64,000 nucleotides of DNA from Magnolia sinica (lineage: Eukaryota > Streptophyta > Magnoliopsida > Magnoliales > Magnoliaceae), in assembly GCF_029962835.1 (NCBI RefSeq), contig NC_080588.1:62582001-62646000 (forward strand). The letters are read 5' to 3'. A program made the translations under genes and the position numbers. The notes beneath the pieces are model-generated. The model did not search any database. It was given only the letters and a program-made list of their open reading frames with translations, and was not told where the DNA came from. Numbering within the stretch: position 1 is the first letter of the stretch; each line of letters opens with the position of its first letter. Positions 10,001 to 16,000 of the stretch are shown one piece after another.

Positions 10001-13000
10001 ATTTGAATCCTACGATTTATGATTCAAATTGTATTTGTTTTCTTCTATTTTAAGCTTCACTTGGCTTTCATTTTATGTTTTTAAATTGGTGGGGGCTTTA
10101 AAAATCATTTAGAAAAAACCTTCAAAGAAAAAGAAAAAAGAATCGTTTAGAAAAGGTAAATTATTATTATTTATTCTTTATAAGAGATTAAATGATATAT
10201 CTTCTCTTCAACATTAAATCATAAAGCTTTTAAATTATGATTTCTTACTTGGTAACTGGTTTAAACACCAAATTGATGTAAGGCTTATTTGGAATGTTTT
10301 TATGGATGGTTGTGCTCATGTTGACTTATATGGATTACAGAATAATGGTTAGAAATCAAAATATCTTTTTTCGTTGGTCTACAAAATCAAATGCCACTTT
10401 TCCAATGTGATTTTACATTCAAGAAAGGTAAGAAGAACATAAATTATTAAAGGATCCTTGCATTTTTTAGAGGAAAAATTCTTGAAATACAAACAAAAAA
10501 AGAAAAGAAGAGGAAAGATAAGAATCGTTTGACACTAACATGGCATGGTATTACTTGGTACATATTGATGTCAAAAGGATGAATGCTAAGTTTTAAATTT
10601 TTTTCATATTTTTAAGAAAATCATAAATAAAATCTTATGATTTACGATAGGATTTGCGATTTGATATGGTTCAACCCCAATTACGATTTGCAATACGATG
10701 ACGATTTTGACAAACATTGACTGGCTCATATACTTCTTGTAACTAACATTTTTTTTTTTTTTTTTGGTGCAATGAAAATAGAGAAGATACACAAGGGGCA
10801 GAGGTGGCCAAATAGAAACAGGCAATGTAGCTCTTTAGGTGAAAAGAAAATCCATAGAATACATGTCTACATTGAAGTATTATCAACACAAAGATACCTT
10901 CTGTGTTCCATATTCAATGCTAAAATGTTCCTTTTCAAAATTCCACAGCCAATATTTATTGCGTTGAACCATATTCCATATGCTTCAATATTCTAAAGAA
11001 TGTAGTAGTCACCAAGTGAAGGTTTCAATGGGAGAACGTACTGATTGTTTAGCCTGCAAGCTTTTCATGGTGGAAGGTCACTTTCTGCTGTTGGCCTTGC
11101 CTTTGTTTTCATCTTTTGCTTTTTTAATGGATTAGTCATCTTCTTAAAAAAAAAAAAAACTAAATCGAACTCATATTATCTCTGGAATGGTGGAACATGG
11201 TTCATGTGGCTAACTCCAGTTAGTTGGTATAAGGCTTAGATGATGATGGTGAACTCATATTGTCTCTCACATATTGTCGGAGTTTATGATAATGAATATT
11301 TTTATTGAACTATGATATTCTATAAAAATAAAATGATATTCTATTCTTCGCTGTTTAGAATTTTTACGTTCCTTTTCCTTCCTCAGTTAATTGAATACAG
11401 CACATTGTAATTGGATCCTCTCTGATAATGTAGACATATGAAAGCTTCTTTTCACAACTCAATTCCTCTGTAGTGAAGTAAGTTTTGTTATTTCTAGTAT
11501 TCAGGCCCTGCGGAGACATCAAAATGATGCAGATACACCCTTATCTCCTATCTATAAGGTGCATCCTAGTGACCTAATGGATCTTTTTCTTTATTTGCAG
11601 CCTAATTTTCTGAAGCTTACATAACCAATGTGATTATATAAATATATTGAGGTATTTTTCTTGTGGGGTTTCTACTTTCACTAGCCCCTTGGGGCATTTT
11701 CTTATTTTCTACCGTCATTTGGAAAATTTCCAAAGCAATGGCATGATTTAACTAGGGTTAGAAAATTTAGAATACAATTGCATGACACAAAAATGATAAA
11801 ACTTGGATTCGTAAATTAAAAAGGATATAGATGTGGAAATGCTGCTGCCACTCAGCAATTTCCAGAAAAAAATGATAGGGATTTGGATGACTGTTCTTCC
11901 AAAACTCAAGTGCAATTCACACTTTTTGTACTGATGAAATCCATTAAAATTGGCATTAGCTAAACATTCGAATAGTCATTTGAACATATTCAGACACATG
12001 GTATCCATATGTGTGGGTGTGTGCACGTGCGTGGGTGTGTGCATATGCATGTGTGTCATTTCATATTTTTATTCTATATTACTTTATTCTTTACAATACT
12101 CGGGAGGCTTGCCCCTTCAGCCTCACCACATGGCGATCCTGACCATTCATCCAGTGGGTCCCACCATGGACAACCTACATGTCAAAATCCACTCTGATTA
12201 GAGTTCCTCATTGTCCATACATGTATTGAAATCTGACGATTGTTTCTATACCTTAGCATGGATGGCGGGGGTCTCTAACTAGTGAGTTTTTTTTTTTTTT
12301 TTTTCCATGTGACCCATCCACAATGGGATCTTCTAGATGAATGTCATGTATCACCATATGTTGGGGCAGAAGGAAAAATCTTGGGGGCAATCCTCTGAGG
12401 GGCGATCCTCCCTATTATTTCTCATTTACAATATAAAACAACTATACAATCTATAATGATTTATAAATATGTTCTACTACAAAATAAATTTCAAAAGTAA
12501 CAGGATATAACCAATGTTTTCTGTATCGTTATTGCGTAATGTATCTCACCCTAGGGATATGGATGCATATCGGTTATCGCACAGGATATATCTGTTGTAT
12601 CGTGTAATTTATTGCTGTTTTTGGGAAACATTGGGAAATTGGTCGAATTTTTCAATGAAACTTTAGGGATTGTTAAAAAAGACACTAATACACACTTAGA
12701 AATGAAAAAATCACAAAAAACAAGTGCACATAATAGGTTTACTTTGTATATTAGGGTCCTAATCTATGTGCTATTTGACTGAACTGATGCAACTATATTT
12801 GAAGTCAAATTCATAAAATTTATTAACGCAAGAAGATGTATGGAAACACACATTACATTCAAAAGCAAAATAAGTAGAAAACTAGAAATATACTTGTGAA
12901 TTTGAACAAAAAATTATTTAGTAAATATTTTTTTTGAAAAATTCCCAAAATTGTCAAGAATGTGTATATACATATTTGATTCCGTGTTTTGACACTAATA

Positions 13001-16000
13001 TTGCAACTGATTTGACAAAAAAATTTGAGGAATTTCGATTTTTCCTCATATTTCTGCAACTCAGCCCATCTCCCCCAAATATCAAAATTGAAACTCTAAA
13101 TCCATAATTTTTCATGTAAAACATGAAGAATCGTGGATTTCTTACAATTTAAAACTATTTACAACATACAAAAATGAAAAAAAAAAAATCAAAACTAAAA
13201 AATACGCACCTTTTAGAATCCGGCTCCAAGAAGCTTTCAATCATGGTTTTGGAGAAGTTTTGAAGATTTTTTTTTTCCCTAACAAATTAGAATGGACTGG
13301 TTGAAATCACTTTACAATGTATTAGGAAGTTTTTTTTTTTTTTTTTGGCACAAAAAATCGAATTTTGTGAATTTTTGAGGATTTTCCAGACAAAACAACG
13401 CCGATTTCCTTTTATCTCATTCGATATTGCATTCAGTATGATATATTGCATGATACATTAAGAATTTATAAAGGGGGATTGTGGATATACCACACGATAT
13501 CGTGGTATCCACAATATATTGTGATATCCTGTGATATATTGTACGATACCATAAAAAATGGATATTAAAACTGGGTTTTGTATTGCCCAGCTGGGATAAC
13601 CGATGTATCCTGGGATAGATGGCTGATATCACAAAATACTGAAAACATTGGATATGACTACAACTGTATCTTGCATCTTTGTTTGTCTAGATACTGGTAA
13701 TACATGCATGTCCAGGTATCTGGATGTCTAGTAAAAGATATGGCTTTACAAAGTTGTGTATTGGTGATTTAAATAATGATAGTAACTATTGGTATTGCAC
13801 CTGGGTGATACGAAACTGGTTGGAAGTTCACTTTCTCGTAGTATCGTGCGATATTTCTCCCAAAACATCGCAATGTATAGCCGAAATATCGATACATTTC
13901 AATATTTTGTAAATATCAGAATTATAATTACAATGAATCATCGATACATATTGACAATACATTAGCGACGTTAATCCCCTTGGAAATTAAAAAAAAAAAA
14001 AAGAGCCAAAAATCCCCAAAAAGTATTTTGCTGAAATTTGTTGCTTCTATTACCTTCCTAAGTTGATCTGGACCATTTCTTTCAATAAATTGGAGAGAAA
14101 AGGGGATTGGGGTGTGGAAATTGAGATCGGAGAGCAAGTGGGCCGAAAACGAAATCAAAGAGTTTTTGTGAATTTAAACACTTTTGTCTCCTTTAAATCA
14201 CTTGGAATCAGTGGAATGGAGTTCATAATCCATGCTTTTGCATGTTTGACATACTCATGTATTTTGACCTCTGATTTGCGAATTTGGGGAAAGTGGGGAA
14301 GATCCAAAATTCCCCCTGTTCAGCCATTTAAGATGCAATTAGATCGTGGAAAAATCACATTTAGAGTTCTTGGAGGCTGTTCTACAGATTCATGGAACTT
14401 TTTGGAAATTTTGATATTTTTTATTTATTTAAAAATATAAAGAATTAATTTTAAAATATATTTGGAAAGGAGATTCACCAGAAGTTATTTAGGCCTAATA
14501 TATATATATTTTTTATGAGTGTATGCTGATCTTAACAACAACGACACCTATTTATTTATTCTCAAAAATAAATTTATTTATTTTGAATATACACCATTCA
14601 TTGTAGAAAGATTTAGTGCCAGTATTTAGTACATTGAATGTGCTAATAAATGATATGAATTATAGAAACATTAGTGATTTCCTTATTTATCGGGCTTTCC
14701 GAAATCAGAGTTGTTTAGCGAATGTTGTCCTTAATCAGGTGTTCACCCGTTTTTTTGTCTGGTCGCCTTGATTTGGTTGGGGCAGGGGTGTAGGGCATGG
14801 GTTGTATTTTGTTTTCTTTTTTCTTTTTCCTTGTAGTTTGGTCTCTTCTGTCGTGTCTATTTTATTTTTTGGCCTTTGGCCCTAATAAATTTGCATCATT
14901 CAAAAACCCTAATAAAGTTGCATCATCTTAAAAAAAATTTTAAAATAATTATAAGTTGTGAAATCAAGATGATATTACTTGCACAAATGCACAGATGTGT
15001 TGAGGGCGCAAAACAGGTCATTATTATTATTATTTTTTTGGGGGGGGTGCTTTTGAAGGTATTGGTTGTGTTTTCATACATGTCTCTATGATTATAAATC
15101 ATATGAATTGATTTTTTAATATAGTTGCATCATTTCTGTTGCATAGCGCATGGTTTAGGACTCTATACAAAGGAAACTTAGTATTTGTACTTATTTTTTT
15201 GTTATCTTTTGAGTTCTATGTGTGTAATGATGTCTTTTTTAACATCCCTTGAAGTTACATTGAAAAATTCCACCTATTTCCCAATGTTTCCCAAACAACA
15301 GCGATACATAATGCGATGCATGCGATATTTCCCTTGCAGTATTGACATGTTTCTGTATCCCAAGTCATTGATAGTGATATTTAAGTCACTACTGTGTACA
15401 GCTTATTGACTGCTGATATAAACAGTGTGCATTTCTCTACAGGTTGTTAAGACTGTCTATGCATCTCCAAGTCGTGTTGATTTCCAATTGGACTCCAGAA
15501 AGGCCAGTCCTCGTGTTTCAGTTTGATTCATTTGTTCTCATATGGTTTAAATTCATTAGTTTCTATCTGACATCAAGTCATTGGCATATTTTCAGGCATC
15601 AGAGACACTTCCTGCATATCCAAATATTTGTTTTGCAATTGATGATTTTGATTCCACTTTTGATGCAGTGGTAAGATGCCTGTTTTATGTTATTTGATAA
15701 TATTTAGCAAGTGGATCCAATATGATTGCTTTTCTTTTGGTATCATCATCATCATCATCTTAGCCTTCCAACAATTTCGGGTTGGCTTCTAAAAGGTAGA
15801 GATTGGCATTTGGCATAAGTTTTATGATCAGCTTCTCAGCAAACATCAACCCTCCTCCTTTACCTGGGCTCCTGGGATTGGCCGTGGTAGAGACTCGCTT
15901 TGGCCCCACTCGCATGCCCATGTCCCAAAGGGCGATCAAGCAAAGCAGGGTCATGGAGGGGCAGTTCCCAGGCAAACCCCTAAGCATGAAGGCACCCAAT

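Follow-up and report, generated by a model that had tools for sequence, protein, structure and literature searches.

A gene-less hAT-type element of Magnolia sinica whose ends carry arrays of the word TATCG

The DNA analyzed herein is a stretch of 64,000 nucleotides from Magnolia sinica (NCBI RefSeq assembly GCF_029962835.1, contig NC_080588.1, positions 62,582,001 to 62,646,000 of the forward strand), which we call the window, and our analysis centers on element A, a transposon copy that belongs to what we term family 1. An earlier note, made from the letters of the window, had placed at 12504..13658 a hAT-type element with defined termini and an 8-bp target-site duplication (TSD), and these boundaries were borne out: the 15-bp terminal inverted repeats (TIRs) match at 14/15 positions and the two TSD copies at 7/8. 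In window coordinates, the element is organized as follows.

12504..12511, plus strand: left TSD, GATATAAC (sequence reading and TIR/TSD scan)
12512..13650, plus strand: element A, a non-autonomous hAT element of 1139 bp, family 1, CNG subfamily (TIR, TSD and genome copies)
12512..12526, plus strand: left TIR, CAATGTTTTCTGTAT (TIR/TSD scan)
12524..12614, plus strand: left word array, eight consensus TATCG positions in a single orientation (subfamily consensus)
12662..13399, plus strand: filler with one GATA/TATC word in 738 bp (word count)
13400..13650, minus strand: right subterminal region, words in mixed orientation (word counts and consensus)
13636..13650, minus strand: right TIR, ATACTGAAAACATTG (TIR/TSD scan)
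13651..13658, plus strand: right TSD, GATATGAC, 7/8 against the left one (sequence reading and TIR/TSD scan)

The scan required a TIR of at least 14/15 and an 8-bp TSD of at least 7/8 at a spacing of 150-3000 bp, with simple-sequence TIRs excluded; it returned three pairs of that quality in the window, one of them element A, and a single pair when applied to 24 order-2 Markov simulations of 64 kb each. The middle of the element is A/T-rich (GC 0.27), and all five rows reported by Tandem Repeats Finder over 12400-14000 fall within this filler, at 13147-13385. The transposon family to which element A belongs is very common, and element A is an old member of it that contains no gene.

A search of the genome with both ends, which the earlier note had called for, revealed common termini among copies in the 1.84 Gb compared (127 contigs, the window lying on the one labeled C16). 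Specifically, with a left-end query of 157 bases in which the element starts at position 9, and with the best 40 of 4141 candidates scored, the 39 other copies were 83-89% identical to the query, and 38 of them started at query positions 2-10 (the remaining one at 21). The right-end query comprised 259 bases, with the element ending at position 251; the best 40 of 249 candidates were scored, giving 42 matches, and the 41 other than our own were 78-84% identical to it, 28 stopping at query positions 247-252, 11 continuing to 254-258 and 2 falling short. Further, an 18-base tip pattern had 415 exact matches in the genome, against 0 for its reversed control, and the left tips of family 1 take the forms CAATGTTTTCNGTATCG and CAATGTTTTAAATATCG.

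The duplications follow these boundaries. Sequences of about 3 kb each were fetched for 39 left-end and 20 right-end copies (59 in total), and each left end was paired with the nearest right TIR at no more than 3/15 mismatches, a rule blind to the TSD; a first pairing, scored partly on the TSD (29/59 with at most one mismatch), was discarded as circular. A right TIR was paired for 31 of the 39 left-end copies. Their 8-bp TSDs have no mismatch in 10 copies, one in 9, two in 6 and three or more in 6, which gives 19 copies within one mismatch, against 9 of 930 unmatched decoy pairs. Elements of the hAT type prefer the target nTnnnnAn, and their short TIRs begin YARNG. Among the 19 TSDs, T stands at position 2 in 16 and A at position 7 in 9, and the tips are of hAT type, CAATG in element A and in both left consensus tips and CAGTG in both right ones. 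Because the copies have common termini, common boundaries and matched 8-bp duplications, the hAT-type, non-autonomous assignment stands, and family 1 is a large non-autonomous hAT family that resembles miniature inverted-repeat transposable elements (MITEs). It comprises two subfamilies: CNG copies are CAATGTTTTCNG-like and 903-1796 bp long, while AAA copies either have CAATGTTTTAAA or fall below 800 bp in length (range 623-1062 bp, most of them near 740). Among the matches listed, neither family 1 nor its arrays are named in the titles or abstract openings of the open-licence PMC literature.

The ends of element A are dense in short words: GATA/TATC occurs eight times in the first 150 bp, 18 times in the last 250 bp and once in the intervening 738 bp. 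Its right end also contains the 150-bp stretch with the highest count in the window (14 words, starting at 13481), and in 200 simulated windows the top 150-bp count was 10, with a mean of maxima of 7.2. The left end alone, with 8-9 words, is not above the simulated maximum and stands out only across copies. For these, we counted words in 35 elements, namely 25 left-end copies (TSD with at most two mismatches), eight right-end copies (TSD with at most one mismatch and a length below 1500 bp) and the window's elements A and C, the latter a relative described below; the remaining fetched copies were excluded. GATA/TATC words reach 62 (AAA) and 54 (CNG) per kb in the left 150 bp and 36 and 64 per kb in the right 250 bp, against 6 and 4 in the middles and 9 and 10 in the flanks, and the 5-mer most enriched in the ends relative to middle plus flank is CGATA/TATCG, at 23-fold. 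The word arrays are a property of the family, and the general local sequence bias that the earlier note had named as a way to be wrong is improbable at these densities (9-10 per kb in flanks, 36-64 in ends).

The composition of the arrays departs from what had been claimed for them. The ends were said to consist almost wholly of GATATC, CGATAC and ATATCG, which is too strong: with both strands counted, these words account for 12% of element A's left 150 bp and for 13% of its right 250 bp (21% and 26% for GATA/TATC). The palindromic GATAC word given as their unit was also misnamed. The left majority consensus has TATCG at positions 13, 19 (TATTG in AAA), 31, 57, 64, 78, 87 and 99, so that the left consensus ends of the two subfamilies hold 7 and 8 TATCG, all in the same orientation, and no CGATA; in element A these positions lie at 12524, 12530, 12542, 12568, 12575, 12589, 12598 and 12610, in the states TATCG (four), TATTG (two) and TATCT (two). 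Across copies, the left 150 bp read from the tip contain 71 and 82 TATCG in the two subfamilies vs 0 CGATA. GATATC occurs once in all 35 left ends counted, and the three GATATC of element A are all in its right subterminal region; the left-end consensus rules this palindrome out as the array unit. The claim that words occur in both orientations thus holds for the right end and fails for the left. Read from the tip, the right end has CGATA more commonly near the tip and is mixed overall, with 38 CGATA vs 12 TATCG in AAA and 61 vs 65 in CNG; the CNG right end has an extra word block at about 100-240 that is not in the AAA consensus, and 7 to 24 words occupy the last 250 bp of individual CNG copies. 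The array unit is a directional, non-palindromic TATCG, sometimes placed head to head in the right end.

No coding capacity was found in element A, and it gave no match to the hAT sequences tried. In the 59 fetched family-1 copies, neither a hidden Markov model of the Ac-like dimer domain nor tblastn of protein pieces from families 2 and 3 (introduced below) gave a match, and on six open reading frames of five long copies Pfam returned just two matches, both sub-threshold. The autonomous hAT with the same ends that the earlier note proposed to look for was not found among the matches listed, for which 178 family-1 left ends (one being the window's own) were compared with 150 DUF659 matches (best of 2821 candidates) and 66/150 dimer-domain matches (of 2766 candidates), and 177 of them also with 131 family-3-type matches (of 3046 candidates). 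Two left end/protein pairs among the matches listed were closer than 6 kb (2.4 and 5.5 kb), and one lay at 12.5 kb. Of the near pairs, L096 (5.5 kb; C1:134474300-134484100) was dropped as an autonomous partner as it belongs to family 2 and its TIR differs, and L097 (2.4 kb; C7:74594600-74601300) as it is a family-3 element inserted in a family-1 left end. The family-1 right TIR, at no more than 2/15 mismatches, was in none of 20 dimer-domain 3' flanks (best 3); the dimer domains of those 20 matches look Ac-like by eye. The proximity method does find partners when they are listed, as family 3 gave 21/100.

The two dropped loci carry genes of DUF659 type, a domain linked to hAT, between word arrays of their own. 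In L096, an open frame of 632 amino acids matches DUF659 at 191.5 bits in Pfam and BED at 17.2 bits, under the 20.6 cut-off, and a further frame of 123 amino acids has no Pfam dimer-domain match. The right TIR of this element reads CAAGGTATCCCGTATCGG, and both ends consist of GTATCGG/GTAACGG arrays, with 15 TATCG/TAACG-type words in the left 350 bp, 9 in the right 530 bp and 3 in the 4400 bp between; no left TIR was found, and we accordingly claim no TSD for it. We also observed an odd junction at L096, where a sequence of about 27 bases after the right end also precedes the family-2 element on its left. In L097, the DUF659 gene is in broken pieces, one of which matches DUF659 at 191.7 bits, while the other three have no Pfam match; the element has the TIR CAGTGTTGTC / GACAACATTG, a perfect 8-bp TSD (CCTGGGAT) within the family-1 left end, and ends in which the palindromes GCATATGC and GCGATCGC alternate. 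The family-2 and family-3 proteins are 39% identical over 215 amino acids, with further matches between their N-terminal pieces and between their C-terminal pieces. Family-3 left ends number 254 at no more than two mismatches (control 0), and with a protein list of 131 family-3-type and three DUF659 matches, a family-3-type protein lies 1.4-2.6 kb inside 21 of 100 left ends listed (chance about 0.014) and within 4 kb on the outer side in 2. Families 2 and 3 resemble family 1 in their dense, family-specific end words enriched in CGAT (CGAT/ATCG at 21-69 per kb in the ends, or 3 to 12 words per end, against 3-4 in the middles, one copy per family). They have DUF659 sequence between the arrays, and they differ from family 1 in their TIRs (CAAGGTATYCC or CARTGTTGTC) and in their words (GTATCGG/GTAACGG or GCATATGC/GCGATCGC).

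Changes within the family-1 words point to decay and, weakly, to constraint. Where the CpG within a word has changed, the change is C>T or G>A in 12/14, 26/27, 78/92 and 160/200 cases in the four end sets, a bias that would fit methylated, silent copies. At A/T sites, 3.8% of cells differ from the consensus inside words vs 8.7% outside (63 and 73 columns), and 64 of 10000 column permutations were as low as the observed value for word sites; fewer substitutions at word sites lend weak support to a function.

We are fairly confident that element A is a decayed, MITE-like, non-autonomous hAT copy whose ends retain what a hAT transposase would need in cis, and whose words were probably bound by such an enzyme supplied in trans. 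The dense end words most likely represent transposase-binding arrays, a reading we favor because the enrichment is family-wide, because DUF659 genes lie between analogous arrays in two families and, weakly, because word sites show fewer substitutions. The ends keep short TIRs and subterminal DNA studded with TATCG over about 100 bp on the left and 100-240 bp on the right. On this reading, a hAT transposase with BED zinc fingers, perhaps related to the DUF659-type proteins of families 2 and 3, would have been supplied in trans. It may have bound the words in a cooperative manner, with a single finger on each TATCG half-site; an asymmetric left/right complex could then have assembled, and cut-and-paste movement with 8-bp staggered insertion would have followed. 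The copy would subsequently have degenerated, in large part through C-to-T changes at the CpG within the words.

Several observations weigh against this explanation. Twelve of the 31 paired copies have no TSD within one mismatch, and the searches above listed no autonomous element with family-1 ends. The substitution test used words defined on the same consensus; in it, the CNG left end has no lower substitution at words (4.1% vs 4.3%), and much of the difference comes from the CNG right end (7.0% vs 23.1%). Finally, in the pieces of L096 and L097 that were scanned, Pfam did not detect the C-terminal dimer domain of hAT proteins, so the assignment of these two loci to hAT rests on DUF659, on their ends and, for L097, on the TSD, and this tempers our confidence in the explanation.

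Among known systems, Ac/Ds of maize makes an 8-bp TSD, and the TIR of Tag1 from Arabidopsis begins CAATGTTTTC. The Ac/Ds word AAACGG contains CpG, as does TATCG, though the words themselves differ and the family-1 transposase is perhaps of the DUF659 type, judging from families 2 and 3. The earlier note knew of no standard description of such a layout, which proved wrong, as Ac, Tag1, Herves and Hermes have been described in these terms in the excerpts available of three papers (PMC3260210, PMC3143072, PMC10368747). Specifically, Ac transposase binds AAACGG repeats in the terminal 200 bp cooperatively, the TIR is short as in family 1, and non-autonomous derivatives likewise share little beyond the TIR and the subterminal words (PMC3260210, in part). 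Tag1 has the motifs AAACCC/TGACCC and Herves the motif CGATTCAT (PMC3143072, in part); Tag1 resembles family 1 in its dissimilar left and right subterminal motifs and in needing about 100 bp per end (PMC3143072 and PMC10368747, in part), and differs in the motifs themselves. In Hermes of the housefly, short AAGY end repeats are bound by BED domains and differ in orientation between left and right, as the family-1 words do, and a quasi-palindromic pair of sites is bound by two BED domains (PMC10368747, in part); the AAGY sites differ from the family-1 word. Because subterminal transposase-binding repeats are known hAT anatomy, the architecture of family 1 is that of a standard hAT element, and its layout is not new.

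Alternative roles for the words can be hypothesized. First, they could be recognized by an anti-silencing or regulatory protein that the transposon itself encodes, in the way that VANC21 targets YAGTATTAY arrays in VANDAL elements; VANC target motifs are described, in the portion available of PMC5735166, as short, dense, non-coding, in the same orientation and different between related families, and the family-1 left words are likewise in a single orientation and the arrays differ by family. We nonetheless regard this as improbable, given that VANC targets are often tandem repeats and Tandem Repeats Finder reported none over the words of element A (12400-14000), and that the words cluster at both termini, hardly occur in the middle and take both orientations at the right end, a layout that matches transposase sites in Ac, Herves and Hermes as far as the excerpts above describe them. 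Second, the words might have no role and reflect local base composition or slippage. The second CNG right block missing from AAA, and the varying word number of CNG right ends, would suit slippage, but the chance of this appears slim: words are sparse in flanks and middles (9-10 and 4-6 per kb), the eight left positions are kept in order in both consensuses save for one TATTG in AAA, and the A/T-rich middle of element A contains a single word. Finally, palindromes could make the ends a source of hairpins or small RNAs, independently of transposase binding. In favor of this, 8-bp palindromes, though few in element A, are denser in the ends (2 in the left 150 bp and 5 in the right 250 bp) than in the middle (2 in 739 bp; window-wide rate, 7.0 per kb). 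We regard it as very improbable, since the words of the left end all point the same way and a search of 12300-15500 against Rfam gave no match at the gathering score.

The window contains further relatives of element A and pieces of family 2.

13762..15391, minus strand: element B, a relative, with ends TGGTGATTTAAATA / TTAAGTCACTA and TSD TTGTGTAT/CTGTGTAC (6/8); ends and TSD by eye
20122..20744, plus strand: element C, a relative, with TIR TAGTGATCTAAATAT (12/15) and TSD CTGGCAAG/CTAGCAAG (7/8); TIR/TSD scan
3781..3962, minus strand: element D, a single end of a relative; outer edge by eye
33241-33588: family-2 piece with CAAGGTATTCC ends and GTAACGG/GTATCGG words, TIR 12/15, TSD 7/8; scan
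about 27851-28091: family-2 piece with CAAGGTATTCC ends and GTAACGG/GTATCGG words; by eye

Segments at 15440-15670 and 21660-21790 resemble plant gene exons by eye, and elements B and C may be intronic. A further element at 62733-63244 is likely of hAT type (TIR TAAGGGTGCACACGG, 14/15; TSD CTCGCCGA/CTTGCCGA), and another at 34043-34486 has a perfect 15-bp TIR, TGTGTGGGCCCCACC, and the TSD GGTCGAGC/GGTCGACC (7/8). A GTGGACCACAC-type repeat, dispersed and tandem (families D5 and D8), occurs at 26229-26709, 53056-53145, 56636-56725, 58724-58813 and 59442-59531.

Alone, family 1 is one more hAT MITE family with subterminal words of a binding type. More useful is the comparison of three hAT-like families that occur in one genome. 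Two of them contain transposase-type genes, the dense words differ from family to family, and CGAT is enriched in all three, a setting in which one can ask how the zinc fingers of hAT elements evolve in concert with their sites. The family-specific arrays that share CGAT add a modest point that can be tested. Less probably, a DUF659-type hAT clade might have diversified its dense end-word arrays in step with each family's BED finger while keeping a common CGAT half-site, present in TATCG, in GTATCGG (with GTAACGG beside it) and in GCGATCGC (alternating with GCATATGC). If this is true, each family would be a natural experiment in the co-evolution of zinc fingers and sites, and, with a CpG in each CGAT word, host methylation could switch off the whole landing platform.

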